A stretch of DNA of 27,346 bases from IMG/VR virus record IMGVR_UViG_3300004095_000010, positions 1 through 27,346 of that record. One strand, 5' to 3'. Below are positions 5,887-21,692 of the stretch, piece by piece (position 1 is the first letter of the stretch; each line of letters starts with the position of its first letter). This DNA comes from a virus. The notes under the pieces are model-generated. The model did not search any database. It saw nothing but the letters and a program-made list of their open reading frames with translations, and was not told the origin of the DNA. A program made the translations under genes and the position numbers.

Positions 5887-6831
5887 ATGATGGGCGGCAA
5901 TGTCTTTACTGGTAAAACAACCCCAATTTTAAGAGAAAATATCAAGCCAACATTGTCTGCATATTTTTCTGAATTGTGTGAATTGTTTCCAAATAAAGCA
6001 GATATTTTTAATAATATTCAATTTGAATCACTAGGATCTACTGGCAAGAAGCCCCAGTCAGGTGATATCGATTTGGGGGTTGCCCCTTCAACTATATTAG
6101 ATAAAGATTTGTCAGACAATGCAGTAGCGCAATGGAACATTGATCCATCAGAAGTATCTATTACTTTTAATAAACTTAAACGCAGGGCGATCACTTCTAC
6201 AGACGATCAATTACGTATTAAGGCGTTCCTGATTCATTTGACCAAATATATCAATAAAAATGCTACTAGTATACATTGCAATGAAAAGAAAGTAGACGTA
6301 GGCGGAATGTTTACTCTATTTCCACAAAAAGATGCACAGTTAAATGACATTGATGCAGGCGTGCAAATTGATTGGATGGTGGGAGATTTGGATTGGTTAA
6401 GGTTCTCATACTATTCGGCAGAATATTGTACAGATTCGAATGTCAAAGGATTACATCGTACACAACTAATGTTATCGGCGTTTCGTGTCGCTGGATTATC
6501 ATTCAGTCATGGAGTTGGTGTTAAAGATAGGATCAGTAAAATGATGTTGGCTACTGAACCAGATCAGGCCCTAACAATTCTCAACCAAAGACTTGGGGTT
6601 GATATTACACGTAGTATCGCTGAAGATTATTACAAACTCAATACTCTGTTACAATATCAACTTTCAACAGCTGATTATGACCGAATGATTGATATCTATT
6701 TTGAAATTTTGGATCACACCCGTGCTGATATTCCTGATGACTTACAAGCAGAATGGTTAGATAGACGAGATCGATTGCAATTGACTGGTAAGTTTTTGCC
6801 AGAAGATTCTAAGTTGAGGGCGGCATTATGA
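5887..6831 (+). CDS. Polymerase-beta-superfamily nucleotidyltransferase, first of a pair
   Basis: A 314-aa protein with the NTase signature LGSTGKKPQSGDIDL near residues 49-63. The G-S loop is followed by catalytic-type Asp60 and Asp62, and a third candidate carboxylate is Asp162 in GVQIDWMV. Then comes a conserved segment (DWLRFSYYSAE, then KGLHRTQLML). The pattern fits phage minimal NTases that transfer nucleotides to an unknown acceptor. AGGAG at 5879-5883 is only 3 bases from the first ATG, so the second ATG at 5890 (6-base spacing) may be the true start. ATGA overlap with the next gene. The substrate is unknown; CCA-adding, oligonucleotide-signal or RNA-tailing roles are all possible. 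Confidence 0.75.
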   Translation: MMGGNVFTGKTTPILRENIKPTLSAYFSELCELFPNKADIFNNIQFESLGSTGKKPQSGDIDLGVAPSTILDKDLSDNAVAQWNIDPSEVSITFNKLKRRAITSTDDQLRIKAFLIHLTKYINKNATSIHCNEKKVDVGGMFTLFPQKDAQLNDIDAGVQIDWMVGDLDWLRFSYYSAEYCTDSNVKGLHRTQLMLSAFRVAGLSFSHGVGVKDRISKMMLATEPDQALTILNQRLGVDITRSIAEDYYKLNTLLQYQLSTADYDRMIDIYFEILDHTRADIPDDLQAEWLDRRDRLQLTGKFLPEDSKLRAAL

Positions 6832-7214
6832 CCACAGCTTGGAGTCACCTACCCAATGCCGCACATATAGATCGAATCTTAGCCGATCTAAAACCCAATC
6901 TAGCCAACTTGAGTGCGGCGTGGGATGTGATTAACAAAACTACTTGGGATGCACGTCATGAGGCAGCCAGAAATGCAGTCGAATTTAAATTCATTGTACG
7001 AGAGGCTTTAAACGCGGCTTCTGCGGTATATACGTCGACAGTTTATTCTGTGGCATGTTCTGCCATATTAGCCTTAATTGTCTGGCCCGAATCGGCTGAT
7101 TATCTATCATTACCAATAAATCAAGTTCGCGTGTTGACGGCATTAGGTGATCAACGAGCTATATTGATACTACCAGCGATTATAGCTTTTGAAAAATCTG
7201 AGGAGTTGCTATGA
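6828..7214 (+). CDS. Helical protein between the two NTases, 128 aa
   Basis: Joined on both sides by ATGA overlaps, so it is a fixed member of the cassette. Residues ~38-65 are Ala-rich helices (TWDARHEAARNAVEFKF). The second half (SAILALIVWPESADYLSLP, then LGDQRAILILPAIIAFEKS) matches a phage family I recognise, with Trp-Asp-Ala repeats followed by a LALIxW motif and LLLPA-like end. That family has no known function. The position suggests a partner, regulator or substrate-recruiting subunit for the NTases, but that is inference. Confidence 0.65.
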   Translation: MTTAWSHLPNAAHIDRILADLKPNLANLSAAWDVINKTTWDARHEAARNAVEFKFIVREALNAASAVYTSTVYSVACSAILALIVWPESADYLSLPINQVRVLTALGDQRAILILPAIIAFEKSEELL

Positions 7215-8086
7215 GTGGGGTAGCAGGCGCAGACCGTATTAGAAGTCGAAAAGATTTCCAACAGTTTATGACAAGCTATTTTTATCTTATTAAGCAGTTT
7301 TCTGAGCCGTATTACATGGCACCAACCGGCAGCTATAATTCAGATTTAGATAAAGAAACATTTGGCGATATGGATTTAGTTGTGTGTTTTCGCACCAAAT
7401 TGACCAAAACAACTCTTAAAAAGTCACTGGTTGAGTTTTTTAACAATCAACCAGTAGATGTTATTATACCCTTTAGTAATCCTAAATATCTAGATCGACG
7501 CACATATAATTCAGGTGAAATTGTAACGGTAAGATATTATGATTCCAAATTGGGTTATTCTGCACAAATAGATAATATTATTGCGACTAGTGGCGAGGAG
7601 GCTGATTTTAAAATAAAGTTTTTAAATCTGACGGCACCAATGCAAGGCTTGATACTGGGATTAGTCAAAGTTGCTACATTGGAAAATCCCATCGAAGAGC
7701 TTTTTATAAGATTGCAGCTTCCATTTGGTCCGGATAAGTTAGGTCCAGATGAGGAATATGAATTTAATTTATCCAGTAGTGAACTACAGTTAAGACGAGT
7801 GCGGTATGCAGCAGGCACTTTTAATCAAATTAGTCGGGAAATAATCTGGACATCTACTCATTTCACACATGTGTTGTATCTATTGTCTGGATATCATATA
7901 ACAGATAACTTTGAAAATTTTGTTTCAGAAATTAAAACTAAAATTAAAAATCCCCGTAGTTTTGCCCGTATCAAAGGATTATTTCGTTCCATGATATCAG
8001 TCAAATCAGGCGAAATTGGAACCCCAAAGGGAGCCGACAAAGAACGAGCAATACAACTAATACAAGAACATTTGACTGTAATCTAA
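7211..8086 (+). CDS. Polymerase-beta-superfamily nucleotidyltransferase, second of a pair
   Basis: A 291-aa protein with PTGSYNSDLDKETFGDMDLV (residues ~38-57). The Gly-Ser loop is followed by Asp53-x-Asp55, and a third carboxylate is Asp121 in AQIDNII. It shares with the first NTase the same order of G-S loop, DxD and QID motif, although little else is alike, so they are probably distant paralogues. The C-terminal ~90 residues are helical and basic (NPRSFARIKGLFRSM), perhaps for RNA or DNA binding. It ends the cassette. The catalytic residues look intact. The acceptor is unknown. Confidence 0.75.
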   Translation: MSGVAGADRIRSRKDFQQFMTSYFYLIKQFSEPYYMAPTGSYNSDLDKETFGDMDLVVCFRTKLTKTTLKKSLVEFFNNQPVDVIIPFSNPKYLDRRTYNSGEIVTVRYYDSKLGYSAQIDNIIATSGEEADFKIKFLNLTAPMQGLILGLVKVATLENPIEELFIRLQLPFGPDKLGPDEEYEFNLSSSELQLRRVRYAAGTFNQISREIIWTSTHFTHVLYLLSGYHITDNFENFVSEIKTKIKNPRSFARIKGLFRSMISVKSGEIGTPKGADKERAIQLIQEHLTVI

Positions 8087-8301: not shown

Positions 8302-9405
8302 TTATAAATCAGGCAGTGCAGTATAGTCTAAAGTATCGCCCATAACACCGATTACATAATTTGTTGATTCGGTTTCCTGTAACGCAGATTGTTTATTGCT
8401 TACATTGACATGTTTGTTGAACCATGGGATTGGTGTAGTTTTGGGTGCAGAATTTTGATACTTAATACCAATCTCTTTCAGTGAAATCATTGCAGTATAA
8501 TCAACAAAGTCCTTTAGAATGTTAGCATTGAGTCCAATTACTGGACCTTGATTAAACAAATAGTCAGCCCATCGTTTCTCCTCTTGTATAACATCTAAAT
8601 ACATCTGATAAACTTCTGCTTCACATTCCTGTTTAGCACGAGCAAACCGCGGATCTTCTTTAACAACTTGATTGATAATCCAACCTGTCCATTCTTTGTG
8701 TAGAATTTCGTCTTGTAGAATCAAGCTGATAATATTACCGTTACCAATAAAGATACGATTTTCCACCATGGCTAAACTTGTAGCGAATGATACCATAAAA
8801 CGAAACGCTTCTAATCCATAGCTGGCATTAAGTGCTAACCATATAGCATTAATATGAGTTTGTTCAGTTAACCCACTGATCTCTAGTTCTTTGATACAAT
8901 TGAGACGATGTAATTCATCATAGTATTTTCCGATACTCGATGCCATCTCAATGATTTCTTTTGTTTCATGAATTTTATTAAACTCATCTTTAGGCACATT
9001 GTAAATATTACGAATGATATGGCTATATGATCGACTGTGAATATTTGTTTCGAAAAATCCCCAGTTATACATCAACGCTTCTAGTTCAGGTATACTGCAT
9101 ACTGGTGTAAATACTTGTGTTGGGCCACGACCTTGTAAACTATCCAATGCAGTTTGTCTTAATAAATTACTGGTAAAAATATGTTTTACTGTATTACTTG
9201 CTTCTTTAAAATCACCTGCATCTTTGGTTAAACTAATTTCTTCCGGCACCCAAAAGAATCCACGAGCTTCGGCATCGAATTTTGTTAACTTATTGTATTT
9301 CACTTCTTCGAACCGTTGTACAGTAACTGGGCCGGCGGGATCTAGAAACATCTTACGACTAAGATAGTCAGTTTTATTCTTCAAATTATATTGTTCTTTA
9401 CTCAT
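8302..9405 (-). CDS. nrdB: Class Ia ribonucleotide reductase, beta subunit
   Basis: Provides the tyrosyl radical for ribonucleotide reduction by NrdA. By eye the E. coli R2 landmarks are present: DSLQGRGP (Asp84-type ligand), FFETNIHSRSYSHIIRN (Glu115/His118 ligands and radical Tyr122), AMVENR (Glu204) and LQDEILHKEW (Glu238/His241). There is one extra residue between the Glu115 and His118 equivalents. The C-terminal tail (TLDYTALPDL) should dock to NrdA. Length 367 aa fits. Separated from nrdA by the aldolase and an 80-aa protein in one leftward unit. Product dNDPs feed phage DNA synthesis. Confidence 0.95.
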   Translation of the reverse strand: MSKEQYNLKNKTDYLSRKMFLDPAGPVTVQRFEEVKYNKLTKFDAEARGFFWVPEEISLTKDAGDFKEASNTVKHIFTSNLLRQTALDSLQGRGPTQVFTPVCSIPELEALMYNWGFFETNIHSRSYSHIIRNIYNVPKDEFNKIHETKEIIEMASSIGKYYDELHRLNCIKELEISGLTEQTHINAIWLALNASYGLEAFRFMVSFATSLAMVENRIFIGNGNIISLILQDEILHKEWTGWIINQVVKEDPRFARAKQECEAEVYQMYLDVIQEEKRWADYLFNQGPVIGLNANILKDFVDYTAMISLKEIGIKYQNSAPKTTPIPWFNKHVNVSNKQSALQETESTNYVIGVMGDTLDYTALPDL

Positions 9406-9426
9406 AATTTAACTCTCATATAGTTT

Positions 9427-9669
9427 TCATAAATCTTGTTGTGTTAGTACCGGTTCATTCCAGATATTTCTGTTGTGAACCATTTGTTCTTTTAATAATC
9501 TCCAAGTTTTTTCTTGAAGTGTTTCGGTCCATACAAAATATAAACTATTTATCGGTGGACGTCCGGTTGAGTCATCATATAACTGTTGATGTAATATATA
9601 TTTTGTTAGCCATACACACTTACCACTTGTTACTCGTGTTGGCCACCACGCAAATTTAATATTTTCCAC
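9427..9669 (-). CDS. Hypothetical phage protein, 80 aa (GTG start)
   Basis: Starts with GTG at 9667-9669, overlapping the aldolase gene by 14 bases, with no other start codon nearby. It is Trp-rich: KFAWWPTRVTSGKCVWLTKY, then a TGRPP turn, then a helix (QEKTWRLLKEQMVHNRN). The same general pattern, a short protein with W-x-P and TGRPP, is familiar from phage genomes, always without known function. Its location between aldolase and nrdB suggests cotranscription with the nucleotide genes. Confidence 0.6.
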   Translation of the reverse strand: MENIKFAWWPTRVTSGKCVWLTKYILHQQLYDDSTGRPPINSLYFVWTETLQEKTWRLLKEQMVHNRNIWNEPVLTQQDL

Positions 9670-10276
9670 TGGCTAACACAATCTTACAAATATGTTCCAA
9701 GCGTTCGATATGTTCATATGCTCGCCATGGGTTCGTATCAATTGCAACTACTCCATGCCCTTTAATGCCTACAATGTCATAGTCAATGTTACCATGCTTG
9801 TCTAATTTCAAATTTTTAAAGCATTCATTTGCCAGTTCCTGACTAATTGGTGCCACATCTCCTACATTTGGTGCTACACGAGTATATCGGTTAAGTTCAG
9901 GAAATGCGTCGCAAATAGTACTTAGATCAATTCCAGCGTGCATAGCAGCAATACAGTAAGTAGGATGAACATGCACGACTACACGAACTTCTTCATGATG
10001 TTGTCCCATGTTGCGCTGTAACCCAAAGTGTAAAGGTATTTCTCCACTGGGCTTTAGATTAGAACTGATGTCAGTATAATATTCTTCTTGCCATAGCAGT
10101 CCGTGTATACTGATCTTTTTGAACTGATCAGGTTGTAAGGTCTGCTTACGTACACCACTAGGTGTAATATAAAAATGATCCCGGTCGTGATGACGAATAC
10201 TTACATTGCCATCTCTACTGGTAATCCAATTACGCTTGTATGCGTCTTCTAATACTTCACATATAGTTTCTAACAT
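9656..10276 (-). CDS. Class II aldolase/adducin-family protein
   Basis: A 206-aa protein of the FucA/AraD/UlaF fold. An N-terminal SRDGNVSIR loop (phosphate/substrate region) is followed by FYITPSGVRK, the Glu in SGEIPLHFGL, the zinc-ligand pair in VVVHVHPTYCIA and the third ligand His in IKGHGVV. These are the expected residues for a zinc-dependent aldolase or epimerase acting on phosphorylated sugars such as fuculose, ribulose or rhamnulose phosphates. The exact substrate cannot be read. RBS AAGGATAG precedes the ATG. It is unusual because it sits between nrdA and nrdB. A carbon-supply or capsule-sugar role is possible. Confidence 0.85.
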   Translation of the reverse strand: MLETICEVLEDAYKRNWITSRDGNVSIRHHDRDHFYITPSGVRKQTLQPDQFKKISIHGLLWQEEYYTDISSNLKPSGEIPLHFGLQRNMGQHHEEVRVVVHVHPTYCIAAMHAGIDLSTICDAFPELNRYTRVAPNVGDVAPISQELANECFKNLKLDKHGNIDYDIVGIKGHGVVAIDTNPWRAYEHIERLEHICKIVLASGKY

Positions 10277-10285
10277 TATCTATCC

Positions 10286-12613
10286 TTAAAGTTTACAGGC
10301 GATGCAATCCTCTTCTTCTTCACTAAAATCAATTATTTCAAGTTTAGTTTCTTCGGCATCTTGTCCTTTACTACCCTGTTTGTTTATGAGTGAGTAATAC
10401 AGAGTTTTTCCGCCCCAATACCAGAAATTCATCAAATTCTTAGCAATCAATGTAGTTGGTACTTTACGATCTGCAAAGTGTGCTGGATTATAAAAAGTAT
10501 TAGTTGAAATAGATTGATCCACAAAAGCTGCCAATATTGCAGCAGTTTTTAGATATCCACTACAATCTTTTTGATCCCACATCAATTGATAGTTTTTACG
10601 AACTTTTAAATTGTTATATTCCGGAACAACTTGTACCAGTGACCCTGCTTTTGATTCTTTAACTGTGATCAAACTCATAGGCATTTCAATTCCATTAGTG
10701 CTATTAATCACCACACTGCTTGACTCTACAGGTGCCACTGCCATTAATGTAGCATTACGGACCCCATATTCTTTCATATTAGTGCGCAAGGTTTCCCAGT
10801 CAAGTTCTGGAGTAAAGTCAGCTAGATCATTAACGCCACGGGCACGTAATTCCCAAGGAAATACGCCTTGTCCATATCGAGTACGATCTGAATCTAAGCA
10901 TTTACCACGTTCCTTAGCCAACTCTACAGTAGCTTCTGTAAGATAAAATGCTTGGTGTTCCATCCAAGATTTAACTTCTTGTAATGCATCAGCGTCGCCA
11001 TACTTCAACCCGCGTTTAGCATGCCAGTAGGCTAAATTTGTAATACCAATACCTAATGGTTGGATTTCGTCATTACTTAATTTAGATTGAATACTTAGAA
11101 AATCTTGGTAGTCAAGTATATTGCACAGGCTACGCTGAAGAATACGGCAAGCACGCCGCATGTCCTCTGGGTTACGGAAAGATCCCCAGTTAATACTACC
11201 AAGCGTACACAAAGCAATACGGCCAGCGTCATCATCCAGACGTTTAAAGGATTTAGTAGGAAGGAGAATTTCACAGCAAAGATTACTCTGATAAATGGTG
11301 TGGTATTCAGGATCAAATGGACCTTGATTCTGTACGTTGTCGATAAACACAAGATAAATGCGTCCAGTATCTGTGCGCTCTTTTAATATGCCGCCTTTGA
11401 ATACATCTTCAGCTGCCATTGTTTTAGTACGTAAGTCTTTACGTTTTTCATACTTTACATACAATTTTTCGAATAATTCAGTATCTTTGTAGAATGCTTC
11501 GTATAAGTCAGGCACTTCATTGGGATCAAAGAAAGTAATATTTTCTTTGTTCTTAAATCTACGCCAGAAAAATGCAGATAACACAACTCCATAATCCATA
11601 AATCTTACTCGTGTCTCATCTGTACCTTGATTGTTTTTAAGAACAATAAGATCATCGAATTGGTAATGCCAAATGGGGTAGAAAATCGTAGCCGAAGCAT
11701 TACGAATACCTCCTTGCGAACACGAACGCAGATCGCCAAACCATTTTTTAAGAAATGGTATCATACCAGTGTGCATTACTTCACCGCCACGTATAGGACT
11801 GCCTAATGGACGTAAACGACCAACTTCCAGCCCAATGCCTGCACGTTTGGCGGCATACTTGGCCATCATCTCGCCGGAAGCAAAGATGCTATCGAGATTG
11901 TCGTCACTGCGGATAAGAACACAAGATGAAAACTGTTTAGTAGGAGTCCCAAGGCCTGCAAGCACAGGAGTGGCAAGAGTGAATAAGCCATCACTTGCCG
12001 CATTGTAGTATTCTTTAATGTAGCGCATACGGACTGTATTAGGTTCTTCTCGATGGAAGACTGTGGCCGCGGCCACCATGTATCTAACTTGAGGAGTTTC
12101 ATAGATCTCCTTTGTAGCACGATTACGGACTAGATATTTTTCAATAAGTTGTTCAATGGCCGCATACCCATATTGCTCATCTTTAGAATGATCAATCATA
12201 TCATTCATACGATTCCAATCATCTTCTGTATACCATTCAAGAAGTTCTGGGGTATATAAACCTACTGCAACATTTTTCTTTACAATTTCATAAAGTGCAG
12301 GTGGATCATATGACCCATACACATCTTTTCTTAGCATTGACAATCTTTGTTTACCAGCAACATACTGGTAGTTGGTATGGCCTACATCAGGATTTGTTTC
12401 AGTATCAATAAGATCTACAATAGCCCTAAGTGTAATCCCATCAATTTCCTCAGTAGTAATTCCATCATAAAAATGCAATTGTGCTTTAATTTCCACCATT
12501 GATTGACTTACATCAGCTATGCCTTTACAAACCTTTGCTACTTGAGCTTGCCATTTTTCAATTTGTAGCGGTTCTTTATTTCCGCCTCTTTTTACAACTG
12601 TAATTTGAGTCAT
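10286..12613 (-). CDS. nrdA: Class Ia ribonucleotide reductase, alpha subunit
   Basis: A 775-aa catalytic subunit. An N-terminal ATP-cone is visible (VVKRGGNKEPLQIEKW, ending near residue 90). Active-site residues are in FSSCVLIRSDD (Cys225-type), SNLCCEILLP (Asn437/Cys439/Glu441-type), ALCTLGSIN (Cys462-type) and TLYYSL (radical-transfer Tyr pair). The C-terminal tail ends in DCIACKL, the swinging redox cysteines regenerated by thioredoxin or the local glutaredoxin. Length is close to E. coli NrdA (761 aa). RBS AGAGAAAT. It is the first gene of the aldolase, 80-aa, nrdB run. Confidence 0.96.
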   Translation of the reverse strand: MTQITVVKRGGNKEPLQIEKWQAQVAKVCKGIADVSQSMVEIKAQLHFYDGITTEEIDGITLRAIVDLIDTETNPDVGHTNYQYVAGKQRLSMLRKDVYGSYDPPALYEIVKKNVAVGLYTPELLEWYTEDDWNRMNDMIDHSKDEQYGYAAIEQLIEKYLVRNRATKEIYETPQVRYMVAAATVFHREEPNTVRMRYIKEYYNAASDGLFTLATPVLAGLGTPTKQFSSCVLIRSDDNLDSIFASGEMMAKYAAKRAGIGLEVGRLRPLGSPIRGGEVMHTGMIPFLKKWFGDLRSCSQGGIRNASATIFYPIWHYQFDDLIVLKNNQGTDETRVRFMDYGVVLSAFFWRRFKNKENITFFDPNEVPDLYEAFYKDTELFEKLYVKYEKRKDLRTKTMAAEDVFKGGILKERTDTGRIYLVFIDNVQNQGPFDPEYHTIYQSNLCCEILLPTKSFKRLDDDAGRIALCTLGSINWGSFRNPEDMRRACRILQRSLCNILDYQDFLSIQSKLSNDEIQPLGIGITNLAYWHAKRGLKYGDADALQEVKSWMEHQAFYLTEATVELAKERGKCLDSDRTRYGQGVFPWELRARGVNDLADFTPELDWETLRTNMKEYGVRNATLMAVAPVESSSVVINSTNGIEMPMSLITVKESKAGSLVQVVPEYNNLKVRKNYQLMWDQKDCSGYLKTAAILAAFVDQSISTNTFYNPAHFADRKVPTTLIAKNLMNFWYWGGKTLYYSLINKQGSKGQDAEETKLEIIDFSEEEEDCIACKL

Positions 12614-15660: not shown

Positions 15661-15987
15661 TTAGATTGTAAACGATTCACCACATCCGCAGCGAGCCTTT
15701 TCCCGAGGATTCCGGAACTCAAAGCCTTCGTTGAGTCCTCGACGTACATAGTCAATTTCTAATCCATCTAAGTATACGTGATCTCTTCCTGCAATCCAAA
15801 CCGTAGCCCCGGCATTTTCATAACGGAACCAATCTCTAGTAACAGGTGCATGATCCAAGTATTCTAATACATAGGCCAGTCCCGAGCATCCTGTAGTCTT
15901 TACACCAACATGAATTCCAATACCTGCCCCACGCTTGGCTATGTTAGCTACGATTTTTTTTGCTGCTGTTTCAGTTATTGTTATCAT
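15661..15987 (-). CDS. iscA: IscA-type A-type Fe-S carrier
   Basis: A 108-aa HesB/IscA protein. It starts MITITETAAKKIV, has the Cys35-type motif TTGCSGLAYVLEY, and ends EKARCGCGESFTI, giving the three conserved Cys that bind iron or a cluster. It is close to E. coli IscA in length (107 aa) and pattern (also GLNEGFEFRNP). A-type carriers pass Fe-S clusters from the scaffold to apo-proteins. It is in the same operon as the IscU gene and overlaps the zinc-ribbon gene by 17 bases. A phage copy could help mature a phage or host Fe-S enzyme; which one is not visible here. Confidence 0.93.
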   Translation of the reverse strand: MITITETAAKKIVANIAKRGAGIGIHVGVKTTGCSGLAYVLEYLDHAPVTRDWFRYENAGATVWIAGRDHVYLDGLEIDYVRRGLNEGFEFRNPREKARCGCGESFTI

Positions 15988-16198
15988 TGTCTATACCTTT
16001 TACAAAGTTATGAAATCGTTCAAGTCGGCGTCTATTATCTTCCAGCATTTCCCAACGCTCATCATTCAAGCCTGAATAATCTGTTATATCTGTCTCACCA
16101 CAGTATTTACACCAAGTGCGATGAAAGGGTGCGATATCATTGTGCTCGTATTCAGCAATCACCTGGCAATGCTGACAAACCGATGGGCCTAATCCCAT
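15971..16198 (-). CDS. Small zinc-ribbon protein
   Basis: A 75-aa protein with two Cys pairs (VCQHC near residue 8-11, WCKYCG near 30-33) spaced like a zinc ribbon, followed by an acidic and then Arg-rich helix (ERWEMLEDNRRRLERF). TAATG overlap with the deformylase gene and a 17-base overlap with iscA place it firmly in the Fe-S operon. Similar short zinc-binding proteins occur beside deformylase genes in T4-like phages. The role is unknown. Confidence 0.7.
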   Translation of the reverse strand: MGLGPSVCQHCQVIAEYEHNDIAPFHRTWCKYCGETDITDYSGLNDERWEMLEDNRRRLERFHNFVKGIDNDNNN

Positions 16199-16692
16199 TA
16201 TTTCTTCCTCGCTTTTGTTAATGCTCGAGTAAATTTCAGATCACTTACATGTTCTTTGAATACATGCCCATCTAAATGTTCCATTTCATGTAGGAAACAT
16301 CGGGCATCCATTCCCGTAAAGGTTGATGAATGTGATATCCCCGCCTGGTCTTGCCAACTGGCATCAACGGAATTAGGACGAGAGATAGATAACCATACTC
16401 CGGGAAAACTCAAACAACCCTCGCTATGCTCCCATAGATCGGTCGAGACAGAATCAATAACGGGGTTATACATGACTATCTGTTGTCCAGCAAACTCACC
16501 TGCTTGTACATTCATAGCCAATACTCGATAAGGAATGCCCACTTGATTTGCTGCTAGTCCCAATGCACTTTCACCTAACAATGTATCGATGAGATCTTGT
16601 TCTATATTAGGTTCCGTCAACGTGTCAAAGAACCAAGTGTTACATGGTGTCAGTAGTACTGGATCTGGCCATCGAACTATTGGTAGTTTCAT
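16198..16692 (-). CDS. def: Peptide deformylase
   Basis: A 164-aa enzyme that removes the N-formyl group from new proteins. All three family motifs are present: GLAANQVG (G-x-G-x-A-A-x-Q type), EGCLSFPG (E-G-C-L-S with the metal-binding Cys), and HEMEHLDG (H-E-x-x-H with two metal His and catalytic Glu). Phage deformylases of this length are well known in marine T4-like phages, where they may favour processing of phage-encoded or host photosystem proteins. Its ATG lies inside the 3' end of iscU (53-base overlap), so the genes are likely translated together. Confidence 0.95.
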   Translation of the reverse strand: MKLPIVRWPDPVLLTPCNTWFFDTLTEPNIEQDLIDTLLGESALGLAANQVGIPYRVLAMNVQAGEFAGQQIVMYNPVIDSVSTDLWEHSEGCLSFPGVWLSISRPNSVDASWQDQAGISHSSTFTGMDARCFLHEMEHLDGHVFKEHVSDLKFTRALTKARKK

Positions 16693-18082
16693 GTTTGTTT
16701 CTATAATCAGCTATTGCTGCTTTAATTGCATCTTCGGCAAGGATTGAACAGTGGATTTTGACTGGTGGAAGTGCCAGTTCTTGGGCAATGTCGCTATTTC
16801 TAATACATCCAGCAGCTTCGAGAGATTTTCCTTTGACCCATTCAGTGACCAAAGAACTACTTGCGATTGCTGATCCGCAGTTGTGTGAGCCGACTCTATT
16901 TGTAAAAAATACATGGGCACCATCCTCTAATTTTAAATCATATACTACAACATTTTTGTCATCACGCTCACATCCTCGTAGTTGATTATGATGTGTGATT
17001 GGAGAAATATCGATAATTTTCATGCCATTATGTATAAAATTCTGTACCTTAGGCAGTGCCTGTTCAATTTCTTCTACTGACAAAAATAATGAATCGTATC
17101 CTGCTGTTGCAAGTTGTTGACTTCTTTTTTGGACATAATCCGATTCTTCTGATCTATCTTGCATAAACTTTGGCATTTTCTTTGTATAAACTTCTATACA
17201 TTTTTTCTTGCCGGGAACAATAAAATCCGGACTTGCGGGGCCTGATGTGGTTTGAATCCATATTGTTCCAGCACTCCATCTTGCCGCTACATTATTTTCT
17301 TCAAATAAATCAATATATTTTTTTTCAATACTAGTAGGTTTAGACCAATCTCGTTGTGCCATTCCTTGTTGCCACTTTTCAATATAACTAGGATCTTGCC
17401 AGTTTTTAATTGAAGCAGCACTGGAGCGTTGCTTTTTAGCTTCTGGGTTCTTACATACATATCCGGGTTGATTCTGTGGCAATACAGAATGATCAAATTC
17501 GGTGTTCCATTTTTTCATTCTTGCGCTATTTTTCTGTTTAATTTCTGTTCGATGTCTATTGTTGGTAAGAATTCTTAACTCATGTTCGGTTATTTCATAT
17601 AATTCTTGCCCCACCTGTAGTTGTTGTGCTTCTACAGGATTATTATCGGCATTCCAAAATATGTGTTCTTTGGTACAAATCAACGAAAAGGTGCCGGGAT
17701 TGATATTTTTTCTACTTGTTTCTCGTTGGAATGAAACTACCAACAAATCACTGATATCAACTGAATGTTTGATTATATCTCTTATTTTTTGATTAACAAT
17801 GCGATTGCCATCCCAAGCCAGTACCTCATCTCCGATATTTAAATCTTTGATTTTTTTAACGCATGTTGGAGTATTAACAGGGGTATTACTAGTTAAACAT
17901 CCGTAGGTCTTAAACTTTGCATCTGTAATAACGCCATCTGATACCTTTATCTGTAACTTCATTACATCTCCACACGCAGGAGCTCCTACCATGCCTGTGC
18001 CAACATCAGCATCGTCTTTGGCAAATGAACCCACATTGCGAGGATTTTCATAATGATCTAAAACTTTATCTGAATAGGCCAT
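16640..18082 (-). CDS. iscU: IscU Fe-S scaffold interrupted by an intein
   Basis: A 480-codon frame: 61 residues of IscU, a 340-residue intein, then 79 residues of IscU. The spliced product would be 140 aa, versus 128 in E. coli. IscU assembles [2Fe-2S] clusters from IscS sulfur. The cluster ligands are Cys37 in VGAPACGD with Asp39, the TYG-C-GSAIASSS Cys (split site) and Cys in KIHCSILAEDA, while LPPVK is the HscA-binding motif. The N-extein is about 80% like the proteobacterial protein. The extra C-terminal tail (HETTNSSMARSSTTDTM) overlaps def. No IscS, HscB, HscA or ferredoxin gene is in the window, so host partners are assumed. Confidence 0.95.
   Translation of the reverse strand: MAYSDKVLDHYENPRNVGSFAKDDADVGTGMVGAPACGDVMKLQIKVSDGVITDAKFKTYGCLTSNTPVNTPTCVKKIKDLNIGDEVLAWDGNRIVNQKIRDIIKHSVDISDLLVVSFQRETSRKNINPGTFSLICTKEHIFWNADNNPVEAQQLQVGQELYEITEHELRILTNNRHRTEIKQKNSARMKKWNTEFDHSVLPQNQPGYVCKNPEAKKQRSSAASIKNWQDPSYIEKWQQGMAQRDWSKPTSIEKKYIDLFEENNVAARWSAGTIWIQTTSGPASPDFIVPGKKKCIEVYTKKMPKFMQDRSEESDYVQKRSQQLATAGYDSLFLSVEEIEQALPKVQNFIHNGMKIIDISPITHHNQLRGCERDDKNVVVYDLKLEDGAHVFFTNRVGSHNCGSAIASSSLVTEWVKGKSLEAAGCIRNSDIAQELALPPVKIHCSILAEDAIKAAIADYRNKHETTNSSMARSSTTDTM
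16880..17899 (-). other. Intein with Vsr-like homing-nuclease domain, inside iscU
   Basis: Starts at Cys1 (CLTSNTPVNTP) and ends SHN before the extein Cys+1. Splicing blocks are intact: block A through GDEVLAWDG, block B TKEH (His at intein residue 79), and block F YDLKLEDGAHVFFTNRVGSHN. Between blocks B and F, intein residues ~120-285, is a basic region with repeated K-x-S-x-K-W elements of NUMOD3 type. Next is a nuclease-like core with SPDFIVPGKKKCIEVY (Asp225, Glu236), preceded by Glu192 in SIEKKYID and followed by a QKRSQQLATAGYDSLF helix. This fits Vsr-like/EDxHD homing nucleases, but the His-x-Asp part is not obvious. The class 1 splicing chemistry looks complete. Confidence 0.9.
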
Positions 18083-18279
18083 TATTTTTTAGCTACATAT
18101 GAATCTACGATTGCTTTCATTGCCTGATCTCTTGCATCTTCGCGAGCACTTGTTTGATATTCAGTCATTATCATAGATAATGCTTTTTCATCGGCTTTTT
18201 TGTCAATTGCCCATGACATACCATGGTATGTGCCTACTAATACTGCTAGTATAACTAATGATTTTACAAATGTCAACAT
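18082..18279 (-). CDS. Small membrane protein, 65 aa
   Basis: Begins MLTFVKSLVILAVLVGTYHG, a single hydrophobic segment or uncleaved signal, followed by a charged helix (DKKADEKALSMIMTEY, then REDARDQAMKAIVDSY). No family is recognised. Its TAA overlaps the iscU ATG, and 3 bases separate it from the racemase. It lies among lysis and transport genes, so it could be a lysis accessory such as an antiholin or spanin-like protein, but nothing in the sequence decides this. Confidence 0.6.
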   Translation of the reverse strand: MLTFVKSLVILAVLVGTYHGMSWAIDKKADEKALSMIMTEYQTSAREDARDQAMKAIVDSYVAKK

Positions 18280-18282
18280 AAT

Positions 18283-18969
18283 TTATCCTTTGAATTTATT
18301 AATAGTCGATTTAACTAAACTGTCAATGCTATTTATTAAACTAATACTATGATATTGTGTTTCTTTAACAACCAATGGAATTTCAGTGCAGCCTAAAATT
18401 ATTGCTGATGCCCCTCGATTAATTAAAGATTCGATAACTGTAACAAACAATCCATGAGCTATTTCGAATTGATTAGCTTTAATTAAATCTATACCAGGCT
18501 GCACATAGTTTTCTATTTCTTCTACAGTGGGAGTTATACAATCCCATCCCATTGCGGTGAGTCTTTGATCATACAGACCCAACCGCATGGTGGCACGAGT
18601 TCCTAATATACCAATGGTACCTTTTATATTTTGAGACTTTAATTCATCAGCTACACTATCTACAATATGTGTAATCGGTATACCAAATTCCATCATTCGA
18701 TCATACCAAAAATGTGCTGTGTTACAGGGAATTACTATATGATCACATTCGGCCGCTTTTAATCCTAGCATACCCTGACAGAGTTTAGGCCAAGGCTGAT
18801 CATCTTGATTAATCAAACTAGTGCTGCGATCTGGCACAGTTGGATCACTCCATACCACAACAGGAATATGTTCCTGATCACATCCTGCTGGAGTTTGTTC
18901 AGTCAATCTTACAAGAAATTCTGCACTAGCCGCTGGTCCCATCCCACCCAATACGCCTAGCCGTTTCAT
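18283..18969 (-). CDS. Aspartate/glutamate racemase-family enzyme
   Basis: A 228-aa protein with the AspR-type start GVLGGMGPAASAEF. The two catalytic cysteines of cofactor-free racemases are present: Cys82 in IPCNTAH and Cys194 in ILGCTEIPLV. The WSDPTVPDRS segment is also typical. The family interconverts L- and D-aspartate (some members glutamate or hydantoins) by a two-base mechanism in the cytoplasm. Length fits (about 230). It lies 4 bases from the holin gene (ATGA-type overlap) and downstream of a glutamate/aspartate-type symporter, so its substrate is plausibly the transported acid. Both catalytic Cys are kept, so it should be active. Confidence 0.88.
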   Translation of the reverse strand: MKRLGVLGGMGPAASAEFLVRLTEQTPAGCDQEHIPVVVWSDPTVPDRSTSLINQDDQPWPKLCQGMLGLKAAECDHIVIPCNTAHFWYDRMMEFGIPITHIVDSVADELKSQNIKGTIGILGTRATMRLGLYDQRLTAMGWDCITPTVEEIENYVQPGIDLIKANQFEIAHGLFVTVIESLINRGASAIILGCTEIPLVVKETQYHSISLINSIDSLVKSTINKFKG

Positions 18970-19574
18970 TTTTTATACAATATACCGCTGGCGACTGACA
19001 TTACAGTTTGTCCAACTTCAATATCATGTTTACTGGGAATTTCTTTCCAACCTACTGAAATTTGTCCTATGAATGTGCCAGGTTCTGTCGGTACACTGAT
19101 TCTGCACATATACTTTACTCCATGCTCTACATACACGAATCCCATAAAACTTTGCGGACGTTCATAAGTTTGACAAGGAACTTTACCTGACATCATGGAA
19201 ATGACATCATTATTATTGTCATAATCTTTTGTCAGTAGTCCAACATCTGATCCATACCTAGTGGTGTCCTGCCCACCACTACGTGTGGTAAAATATATCA
19301 ACTTGCGTGTGTTTAATAGTGTGTTAACTTCGTAAATAGCAATTAACTCTGCTTGACTATTCTTGATTATAAAATTAGACGCTTCTTCATACTTACCATT
19401 CATGTGCGGCAATGCCTGTTGGGCGCGATAGCTTTCCATGAATTTATCTTTTTCGGTATATCCGACCCACCCAATAAAGGTTAAGAAACACAATAATATT
19501 ACTGTAAATAATCTAAAAGGACTATGTCCTATCCATTCAAGTAGATTGAGTAGGAATTGTTTGATTTCGCTCAT
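18966..19574 (-). CDS. T4-type holin (gpT-like)
   Basis: I chose the ATG at 19572-19574 (MSEIKQFLLNLLEWIG), with AGGA upstream, over a TTG eight codons earlier. The 202-aa product has a short cytoplasmic N-terminus, one membrane segment at ~20-40 (FRLFTVILLCFLTFIGWVG), and a large periplasmic domain. The end (VKYMCRISVP, FIGQISVGW) recalls the closing motif of the T4 holin T (YMYSC..., AGTITMYW). T4 gpT is 218 aa with the same layout and forms the lesion that releases the endolysin. Similarity was judged by eye. Its start overlaps the symporter gene, which is an odd neighbour for a holin. Confidence 0.7.
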   Translation of the reverse strand: MSEIKQFLLNLLEWIGHSPFRLFTVILLCFLTFIGWVGYTEKDKFMESYRAQQALPHMNGKYEEASNFIIKNSQAELIAIYEVNTLLNTRKLIYFTTRSGGQDTTRYGSDVGLLTKDYDNNNDVISMMSGKVPCQTYERPQSFMGFVYVEHGVKYMCRISVPTEPGTFIGQISVGWKEIPSKHDIEVGQTVMSVASGILYKK

Positions 19575-20829
19575 CTTGTTTTTCCTTATCACATACAAAT
19601 GCAGTCACTGCAACATTACCATGTACATGACTTGCAGTACGAATCATATCCATCAATGGGTCAACGGCTATCAATAGTACTAGCACTGCCTCGCTCGGCA
19701 ATTTTAATAAATCGCAAACAACAGCCACAGTAGCCACTGTTAGTATACCAGTAGTACCAGCACTGGCTAATCCAGCTAATATACTGCCAAATAATACCAC
19801 CATTAAGGTTCCAATTGTCATTGGAGTATCATATATATTGGCAATGAAAACAGTCGCAATAGCATAATACAATACACTACCAACTCGATTAACAGTAAAA
19901 CTTAATGGAACCGTAAGTTCAACTCCAGATTTGTCAAATTGTAATCTAGACAGTGCTTCTTGTGCATAAGGAATACATGCCAAACTACTGCGTGAGCTTA
20001 CTGCAACAATCAACGTTTCTTTGGTTTCTCTTATTACATTCATAATACTGCCACCAGCTCTTACCCAAATTACTAGTGTTCCTACAATAACGATTAACAT
20101 GCCGCCAATAAACTGCTGATAGATAAATTCTATCATTGTGCCAAATATACCTACGCCTACTTTGGCTACTTGTGCGCTAATCATAGCCAATAGAGCAAAT
20201 GGTAATCCATAGTTTAAGAATTTGAAAATACTGATACTAGCTAGTTGTACACTTTGGAATATATCCACTATAATACGCTGTCCTGGGGATTTGATACTGC
20301 CTAATGCAATACCAAATATTAAACAAAATATAACAATCTTTAAACTTTCTCCGCGATCCAATGTGGCAAAAATATTTTCAGGAATAAATTTATCGGCTAC
20401 TGCCATTGGATTAACTTTTTCAGTTACAGGCATAGGTTCGTGCAATGTAATATTCATGTCCGAAGATTGATCTTTATTATTAACCAATGCTCCCAATTGT
20501 ATTTTCTTTTCAGTGGTCATTTCGCTTCCTGTAATAACCACTGTACCCACTCCTATCAGCGAGGAAAGAAACATACTTGCTAGGAATCCCAAAATGATAC
20601 GCTTAATCATAGTCTGACTGCCTTCTTTTTGCAGTAGATTAATTACACCTACCATAATAGTAGCAAATAAGAATGGCAATACAACAACTTTTAATAAGCT
20701 AATATAGATACCGCCAACAGGTTCAAAATTTACTGCAAACTCAGGAGTATAAATTCCCGTCAGTACCCCTAATATAATAGAACCTAATATGGTCCATGGA
20801 CTCGTTAAAAAACTTTTTAAATATGACAT
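19537..20829 (-). CDS. Dicarboxylate/amino-acid symporter (DAACS/SLC1 type), divergent
   Basis: A 430-aa membrane protein with the GltPh/GltP layout: N-terminal helices, the serine-rich hairpin VSSRSSLACIP (residues 278-287), the NMDGT-like motif as NRVGS (314-318), hairpin-2 LASAGTTGIL (~354-363), and a D-x-x-x-D-x-x-R-T helix (VDPLMDMIRT, Asp390, Asp394, Arg397). By eye several Na+-site residues of GltPh are changed: Asp312 to Val316, Asn401 to His401, Asp405 to Asn405, while the amino-acid-binding Asp394 and Arg397 are kept. It probably imports glutamate or aspartate with altered coupling. The gene follows the binding-protein gene by 15 bases. Very unusual in a phage. Confidence 0.88.
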   Translation of the reverse strand: MSYLKSFLTSPWTILGSIILGVLTGIYTPEFAVNFEPVGGIYISLLKVVVLPFLFATIMVGVINLLQKEGSQTMIKRIILGFLASMFLSSLIGVGTVVITGSEMTTEKKIQLGALVNNKDQSSDMNITLHEPMPVTEKVNPMAVADKFIPENIFATLDRGESLKIVIFCLIFGIALGSIKSPGQRIIVDIFQSVQLASISIFKFLNYGLPFALLAMISAQVAKVGVGIFGTMIEFIYQQFIGGMLIVIVGTLVIWVRAGGSIMNVIRETKETLIVAVSSRSSLACIPYAQEALSRLQFDKSGVELTVPLSFTVNRVGSVLYYAIATVFIANIYDTPMTIGTLMVVLFGSILAGLASAGTTGILTVATVAVVCDLLKLPSEAVLVLLIAVDPLMDMIRTASHVHGNVAVTAFVCDKEKQDERNQTIPTQST

Positions 20830-20844
20830 TATGATTTATCCCGA

Positions 20845-21672
20845 TTATTTCTTTGAAATTTCTGATTTATAACGATCCATTAATTTTTTAACATTAATGT
20901 TGCTATATTGATTAGTAATAACATAGTCAATTATAGCCAGTAATTGCGGCGATTGGTAATTAACTGCTACTGCAATATCATCGACAGCATCGCTTATAGT
21001 GATTACTTTAGTACTAAGTGCTGCATCTGGTTTTTCGAAACTGATTTTTTTCATTTCAAACTCATCTCGATATGCACCAGCACTACGTCCAGACATTACA
21101 TCTTCTACAATTTTCCCCCAATTTACTTCGGAGTTGTACTCGGCATTGGGAAAATTAATTTTTGCAAATGTTTCATAGCTGCTGTTTTTGATAAAACTCA
21201 AACGACCATTAAAATTTCTTATTGCTTCATAAGGTTCTCTGCCGTCTAAATTTTTGCTTAACCATAAGCGATTAACTATCATAGCCTGTTTAAGACGTAG
21301 ATAAGGAACACTAAATCTTAATGTTTGTAATCTTGGCGGGGTAATAGATAATTTACTGACAGCTATGTCGGCACGACCATCTCGTACTTGTTCAGCAACA
21401 TCGGCAAAACTAGCTGCATCTCGACGAAATTCAACAGGTACATTTAATATATGTGCTATGCTTTTGGCAATATCAACATCTAATCCCTGTAGATGTTCTG
21501 CATCACCGCTGTAAAAGGGAGGGGAATCTTGCTTAGTCATTGCTACAACTAAAACATTTCGTTTTTTAATTGCAGCGATATCTGGCGGAAGAGGCACGGC
21601 AGATGTAGACAGTTGGGCCATAGCCACTGTGTTTGTAAGCAATAATGTCAAAAGTAATAGTATTTTTTTCAT
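20845..21672 (-). CDS. Periplasmic amino-acid-binding protein (SBP_bac_3)
   Basis: A 275-aa protein. Residues 1-19 are a signal peptide (MKKILLLLTLLLTNTVAMA). The SBP_bac_3 pattern follows: LQGLDVDIAKSIA near 61-73, then ADIAVSKLSITPPRL with Arg114, which normally binds the amino-acid carboxylate, then RFSVPYLRLKQ. The second lobe has AYRDEFEM. Such proteins feed ABC importers, but no ATPase or ABC permease is present in the window. The immediate partner is the symporter. A late-type box lies eight bases before the ATG and no clear ribosome-binding site is seen. Scavenging or sensing of acidic amino acids is likely. Confidence 0.87.
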   Translation of the reverse strand: MKKILLLLTLLLTNTVAMAQLSTSAVPLPPDIAAIKKRNVLVVAMTKQDSPPFYSGDAEHLQGLDVDIAKSIAHILNVPVEFRRDAASFADVAEQVRDGRADIAVSKLSITPPRLQTLRFSVPYLRLKQAMIVNRLWLSKNLDGREPYEAIRNFNGRLSFIKNSSYETFAKINFPNAEYNSEVNWGKIVEDVMSGRSAGAYRDEFEMKKISFEKPDAALSTKVITISDAVDDIAVAVNYQSPQLLAIIDYVITNQYSNINVKKLMDRYKSEISKK

Positions 21673-21674
21673 AG

Positions 21675-21692
21675 TATAGTATTTATACTATA
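21675..21692. repeat. Perfect palindrome containing a late-promoter box
   Basis: Eight bases (TATAGTAT, 21675-21682) and their inverted copy (21685-21692) flank two bases just before the binding-protein ATG at 21672. The minus strand of this palindrome contains TATAAATA (21680-21687), the exact T4 late consensus. It could be an operator or only a symmetric promoter. Confidence 0.55.
21680..21687 (-). promoter_or_regulatory. T4-type late promoter (TATAAATA) before the binding-protein/transport cassette
   Basis: A perfect match to the T4 late box on the minus strand, 8 bases before the ATG at 21672. The short distance means the mRNA would be nearly leaderless, or start inside the signal-peptide codons. 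Confidence 0.55.

Follow-up and report, generated by a model that had tools for sequence, protein, structure and literature searches.

We found that a binding protein of the SBP_bac_3 family (SBP) and a carrier of the SDF/DAACS family are encoded side by side in viral DNA, within a four-gene cassette that also includes a T4-type holin and a racemase. The partnership, first proposed in a preliminary description of a single virus record, proved real and recurrent, being present in 76 of 76 viral contigs with enough sequence and 13 of 13 testable chromosomal loci, against 0 of 41 ordinary SDF loci. We think it fairly probable that the two proteins form one binding-protein-dependent secondary transporter for acidic amino acids, which phages carry together with the racemase in a late operon.

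The cassette in viral contigs and on chromosomes

The stretch analysed here, referred to as the window, is an IMG/VR virus record of 27,346 b, and the same stretch was found, identical, inside a viral contig of 154,059 b (L003). On its minus strand (21672 to 18283) the genes run in the order SBP, SDF, holin and racemase with almost no gaps (Table 1). Fifteen bases separate the SBP and SDF genes, the end of SDF overlaps the start of the holin gene by 38 b, and the holin and racemase genes overlap by 4 b (ATGA). All four genes were thus confirmed at the positions, in the order and with the family names originally given, the holin by profile and fold and the others by Pfam matches. A holin start at the TTG of the longest open reading frame was considered and replaced by the ATG at 19574.

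Table 1. Features of the cassette region in the window.
Feature	Position	Strand	Length	Basis or remark
SBP_bac_3 periplasmic amino-acid-type binding protein	20845..21672	-	275 aa	PF00497, E 8.5e-21
SDF/DAACS-family elevator-type carrier, SBP-linked clade	19537..20829	-	430 aa	PF00375, E 2.3e-66
T4-type (class III) holin-like protein	18966..19574	-	202 aa	Profile comparison and AlphaFold model
Asp/Glu-family racemase	18283..18969	-		PF01177, E 5.2e-40; NCBIfam CuyB and asp_race models over cut-off
Small membrane or exported protein (predicted), downstream of racemase	18082..18279	-	65 aa	Outside the conserved core
TATAAATA, T4-type late-promoter motif	21680..21687	-		Predicted promoter; SBP start codon follows after 7 nt

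Profile-guided scanning of viral contigs for SDF, the holin and SBP recovered the cassette in about 98 IMG/VR contigs or places besides the window, representing 58 distinct SDF sequences and 14 clusters below 86% identity; since these contigs are related, the locus counts are not independent events. In every viral contig of the 76, the gene immediately upstream of SDF, on its strand, encoded the SBP, with a gap of 3-64 b (253 b in three contigs). The holin gene was directly downstream of SDF in 71 of 71 testable contigs and the racemase nearby in 47 of 58, usually as the next gene. No other neighbouring gene was common to the viral cassette loci so widely, and phage relatives with the genes scattered, an arrangement that the preliminary description had held to count against its reading, were not seen among these contigs. 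Median dN/dS values, from pairs of which many had dS near 1, were 0.05 for SDF, 0.08 for SBP, 0.07 for the holin and 0.10 for the racemase. That dozens of other contigs keep this gene order, with purifying selection on the genes, argues that the cassette is not a chance arrangement.

One contig of 524,565 b carried two cassettes (L128 and L129), and the T4-type major capsid protein Gp23 was encoded in nine of 14 large viral records. We read the carriers as freshwater-type T4-like and jumbo phages, the freshwater origin being taken from the kind of IMG samples and from a Burkholderiales relative. In an annotated phage collection, no isolated phage was found to carry the cassette. Matches there to SDF, SBP and the racemase were 20-38% identical, mostly bacterial-looking sequence in phage records, and were set aside.

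SBP-SDF pairs of this class also occur outside phages. Sampled Pseudomonadota genomes were searched with the SDF profile alone for members of the clade, and each of the 13 testable chromosomal SDFs had an adjacent SBP gene (the locus of G883, cut by a contig end, lies outside the 13). Ordinary SDF loci used as controls had no SBP gene within about 1.5 kb (0/30 and 0/11). The arrangements observed were SBP-SDF-racemase-SDF2 (G061, G1015), SBP-SDF-racemase (G968, G770), racemase-SBP-SDF (G478), SBP-SDF-SDF2 (G059, and a second cluster of the G001 genome), SBP-SDF (G371, G755, G737, and G578 within the atp operon) and SDF-SBP (G768), with families confirmed by Pfam in those loci that were checked. 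Several of these pairs overlapped by ATGA or sat 1-7 b apart. One more such locus, on a Burkholderiales contig (L158), came from a genome scan; its SBP-SDF pair lies next to dehydrogenase and T6SS genes, and a holin is absent there as from all the chromosomal SBP-SDF loci. An earlier genome scan with a two-row SDF alignment gave no match. The converse search of the same 300 Burkholderiales genomes with an SBP profile, built on an alignment already containing those Burkholderiales sequences, led to an identical set of three genomes and four loci. Bacterial genomes had been proposed as the place to look for adjacent or fused genes: adjacency was found throughout the testable loci, and fusion in none of the loci read. 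Apparent fusions in G059 and G1015 (open frames of 726 and 1227 aa) were out-of-frame read-through in high-GC DNA, the genes being separate.

The five chromosomal loci with a racemase, together with the viral loci, support the racemase as a recurrent third partner of SBP-SDF in phages and bacteria. Among 90 Pseudomonadota genomes, a racemase of the phage subfamily (E<=1e-30) turned up just once, as the copy in the G770 operon.

SBP_bac_3 proteins normally serve ABC importers, and the PDB chains closest to the window SBP are ABC binding proteins. Both points favour an alternative in which the SBP serves an ABC permease supplied by the host during infection and SDF works alone, the two being co-expressed as parallel routes for the same amino acid. 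The G770 locus fits this alternative as well, with an amino-acid ABC ATPase (GltL-like) and permease (GltK-like) downstream of its racemase, so that the SBP may have a double function there. No GltJ/K/L-like gene was found in the other chromosomal loci read, and 14 cassette-bearing viral records of 95-525 kb gave no match to the ABC permease family PF00528, which was matched in 14 of 14 control genomes; the claim that the cassette comes without an ABC permease therefore held well beyond the window. A strict one-to-one linkage confined to one aberrant SDF clade would also be unexpected for the binding protein of another transporter, and we consider parallel routes unlikely.

Substrate and ion coupling

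The SBP has a signal-peptide-like N-terminus without a lipobox. Its R114 is invariant and its D203 conserved, and from knowledge of the family we take these to be the alpha-carboxylate and alpha-amino sites, respectively. The catalytic Cys82 and Cys194 of the racemase are invariant. The window racemase scored 217.8 bits against NF052483 (cysteate racemase CuyB; cut-off 190), a model also passed by Salmonella STM4510 (227), the 'aspartate racemase' beside iadA. Genes of the CuyA type (PALP family, PF00291), expected for a cysteate pathway, were not found near the chromosomal operons. Because the CuyB model also matches the Salmonella enzyme and no CuyA-type gene lies nearby, Asp, Glu and cysteate all remain candidates; the Asp and Glu of the preliminary description are thus joined by cysteate. 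Taken together, R114 and D203 of the SBP, R397 of SDF and a racemase with both catalytic Cys point to an acidic amino acid.

The SBP-linked SDFs formed one clade (support 100/100) on a branch of 1.74 away from all ordinary SDFs. The SDF of the G001 pair next to dehydrogenases fell within the phage clade, suggesting transfer from phage to host. In the window SDF, NRVGS replaces NMDGT and N405 replaces D405. Where Na+-coupled carriers have the loop NMDGT, phage members have NR[IVL]GS and chromosomal ones usually xRxG[SP], with Arg at the position of GltPh M311 throughout the SBP-linked SDFs except for one Gln (G578). The clade has also lost D312 and D405, and N401 is His in phage forms, so that in place of the Na+-coupled set N310, M311, D312, N401 and D405 the phage forms have R311, I/V/L312, H401 and N405. 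The loss of these Na+-site residues makes Na+ coupling like that of GltPh unlikely and the name 'Na+ symporter' doubtful; of the DAACS-type symporter originally described, the family assignment stands (PF00375 over cut-off). The signature of H+-coupled SDFs (GltP, DctA) given in the available text of PMC12668577 is a hydrophobic residue at 92, L311 and N405, of which phage SDFs have N405, but R rather than L at 311. From these residues, H+ coupling and uncoupled transport are both open candidates. An AlphaFold model of SDF (pLDDT 67) was too weak for use.

The phage SDFs whose residues were tabulated kept the acidic-substrate residues R397, D394 and T398 (GltPh numbering), which according to the available text of PMC12668577 read the acidic side chain and amino group, along with the substrate residues of HP1, HP2 and TM8. 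R397 or D394 was missing in some chromosomal members (G968, G770, G768, G371, G578), and the substrate may therefore differ across the clade.

The altered Na+ site, with its Arg at the tip of the NMD loop, is also what one might expect if the SDF protein had given up transport and instead served, as a receptor or channel in the membrane, to sense ligand through the SBP and so set the state of the membrane or holin. Its strict adjacency to the holin in phages, and the second G001 cluster, which adjoins an MscS-like protein with a cNMP-binding domain, would agree with such a role. The retained HP1, HP2 and TM8 substrate residues and the strong purifying selection on phage SDFs argue against it, and linkage to a racemase suits metabolism better. 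We regard a sensor as improbable.

Under the transporter reading, the periplasmic SBP would capture an acidic amino acid (Asp, Glu or cysteate, an analogue of aspartate, in L or D form), dock on its dedicated elevator-type SDF carrier and hand over the ligand, in the way that TRAP and TAXI-GltS are thought to work. The racemase would interconvert the imported enantiomers and may help to hold a gradient into the cell should ion coupling of the carrier be weak or absent. In this scheme we infer the physical docking, the substrate, the direction and energetics of transport and the benefit to the phage.

Probable late expression and the holin

Of 62 distinct loci, 35 had the motif TATAAATA, which we take to be the T4 late-promoter consensus, in the 150 b preceding the SBP gene, where 0.77 would be expected. 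Counted by SBP cluster it was present in 12 of 22, compared with a mean of 0.9 for composition-matched 8-mers. It was found upstream of neither SDF (0/60) nor the racemase (0/41), and upstream of the holin in 3 of 64 cases, all three of them stand-alone holins. Such a distribution, before SBP and never before SDF or the racemase, makes it most likely that the cassette is transcribed late as one unit, probably a single operon. In many loci the motif ends only 5-7 nt from the SBP start codon, a spacing that suggests a very short or leaderless mRNA. With the holin gene placed between carrier and racemase in a late operon, uptake of the amino acid by the infected cell would go on while virions are assembled, up to lysis.

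The holin-like protein has an N-terminal transmembrane helix and a GAF-like periplasmic domain with two invariant Cys. No Pfam model matched it convincingly, and comparison of the T4 holin sequence alone with the holin profile gave no match (prob 1.5%). A profile-profile comparison of the window holin family with seven T4/T5-type holins gave a probability of 90.6% (E 1.3e-6). Foldseek matches of its AlphaFold model (pLDDT 90) included T4 holin T (6psk, 6px4, 6pxe; E 1.6e-5 to 2.5e-4) and annotated phage holins; GAF domains were also among the matches, so the fold alone is not specific for a holin. By profile, fold and topology, the third gene is a T4-type (class III) holin, as first described, with putative lethal-pore activity. 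T4 holin T, which works with the periplasmic antiholin RI (PMC11413866, PMC8385771), shares topology, profile and periplasmic fold with the cassette holin. The sequence similarity between them is remote, and the gene neighbour of the cassette holin is a soluble SBP and no known antiholin.

Nine contigs had the holin-like gene without SBP-SDF. It adjoined a GH19-like endolysin gene in L067 and a DNA polymerase gene in L051, L053 and L072, and L004 had the full SBP-SDF-holin trio in this same DNA-polymerase neighbourhood. The correspondence of sites, together with the chromosomal versions that have no holin, suggests that a host-derived metabolic operon may have landed once by the holin and since been inherited and exchanged in one piece, with no functional connection. 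This account concerns the holin link only and leaves the SBP-SDF pair as it is; we give it about an even chance. Against it stand the constant order and strand of the block across phages of different backgrounds, the purifying selection on all four genes, and the position of the late motif, which in cassette-bearing loci stands ahead of SBP and not of the holin.

Only the shared late-type operon and the strict adjacency to a T4-type holin hint at a role in lysis timing. One conceivable form of it is that the SBP, loaded or empty, binds the periplasmic domain of the holin like antiholin RI, or that SDF flux alters membrane energisation, so that the extracellular acidic amino acid would set the burst time. 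We consider such a coupling of nutrient and lysis improbable.

Relation to known transport systems

Our best reading of the gene and residue patterns is that the system would work like the known SBP-dependent secondary transporters and take a place beside TRAP, TT and TAXI-GltS, with both parts drawn from different families. Neither an SBP_bac_3-SDF pair nor this phage cassette was found described in the mostly open-access literature searched. An SBP is linked here to one secondary carrier without ABC parts (G770 being the exception). TRAP and TT (tripartite tricarboxylate) systems, likewise SBP-dependent secondary transporters of carboxylates, differ in their membrane parts, since DctQ/DctM or TctA/TctB are absent here and one SDF protein stands instead. 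The membrane part matches PF00375 and the SBP PF00497, rather than the DctP/TAXI, DctQ and DctM of TRAP.

TRAP and TT were the only SBP-dependent secondary families before the 2025 TAXI-GltS paper (PMC12344293). In that system (Bordetella pertussis BP0403/BP0402), as here, an SBP gene accompanies a one-component secondary glutamate carrier of the elevator type, with translational coupling and without TRAP or ABC membrane parts. The families are unrelated, TAXI SBP and GltS/ESS carrier there and SBP_bac_3 and SDF/DAACS here, and fusions are known there, whereas none were found among the loci read here. Unlike TAXI-GltS, the present pair also occurs in phages and with a racemase.

GltPh, GltP and DctA match the same Pfam family SDF over cut-off and share R397, D394 and T398 with the phage forms. 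In contrast to them, the SDFs described here always sit next to an SBP, form a separate clade, have NR[IVL] or xRx in place of NMD, and have lost D312 and D405. The Na+-uncoupled Ext-Int glutamate transporter clade has similarly lost the Na+ signature and is encoded near amino-acid-metabolising enzymes, as uncoupled SDFs often are, which fits the racemase partner here; that clade has been reported in Bacillota, the available text mentions no SBP partner, and the residue changes here go further (PMC12668577).

In the SBP-linked SDF clade we see a natural experiment on how Na+ coupling is lost. No elevator family has a richer structural record than SDF, the archetype among them (GltPh, EAATs). 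According to the authors of the TAXI-GltS study, additional classes would put to the test whether SBP docking is compatible with the elevator mechanism (PMC12344293), and the structural record of SDF combined with an SBP-linked clade makes this question directly testable. For phage biology, the cassette would, if our reading is true, represent a phage-coded amino-acid importer made in the late phase together with a holin.

Gene neighbourhood of the cassette in the window

Immediately downstream of the cassette lies an Fe-S assembly group in which a peptide deformylase gene separates IscA from IscU, and the IscU/NifU gene is itself interrupted by an intein-like insert at its conserved cysteine (YGC|...|HNCGSAIASSS). 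The large and small subunit genes of ribonucleotide reductase are separated by a class II aldolase-like gene. In the plus-strand block a 128-aa protein is flanked by larger proteins of 314 and 291 aa, which by eye look like nucleotidyltransferases; neither had a Pfam match.

Coordinates of features in the window and at other loci
Feature	Location	Strand	Remark
Three-gene block	window 5887-8086	+	opposite to cassette
Ribonucleotide reductase genes and class II aldolase-like gene	window 8302-12613	-	
Class II aldolase-like gene	window 9656-10276	-	
IscA	window 15661-15987	-	
Peptide deformylase	window 16198-16692	-	
IscU/NifU with intein-like insert	window 16640-18082	-	Hint domain matches, PF01079 E 1.6e-4
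Second holin-like paralogue	L007 10734-11345		viral locus
SBP-SDF pair	L158 7164-9260		Burkholderiales contig
SBP-SDF-SDF2 cluster, then MscS-like protein	L170 12883-18015		genome G001

Second copies in viral contigs

At two viral loci (L007 and L010) the racemase is followed by a divergent second holin-like paralogue (27% identical). The 524.6-kb viral contig IMGVR_UViG_3300027749_002876 carries two divergent cassette copies (L128, L129), with ~197 kb between them.

Chromosomal SBP-SDF pairs

On contig 66 of G578 (L183) the pair is flanked by atpA and atpG and thereby lies inside an operon for ATP synthase. At L170 SDF2 is a degenerate second SDF, and the MscS-like protein after the cluster contains a cNMP-binding domain; SDF2 also comes after SDF in G059, G061 and G1015. 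The L158 pair, from a Burkholderiales contig, nests within the phage SDF clade, which suggests gene transfer from phage to host.
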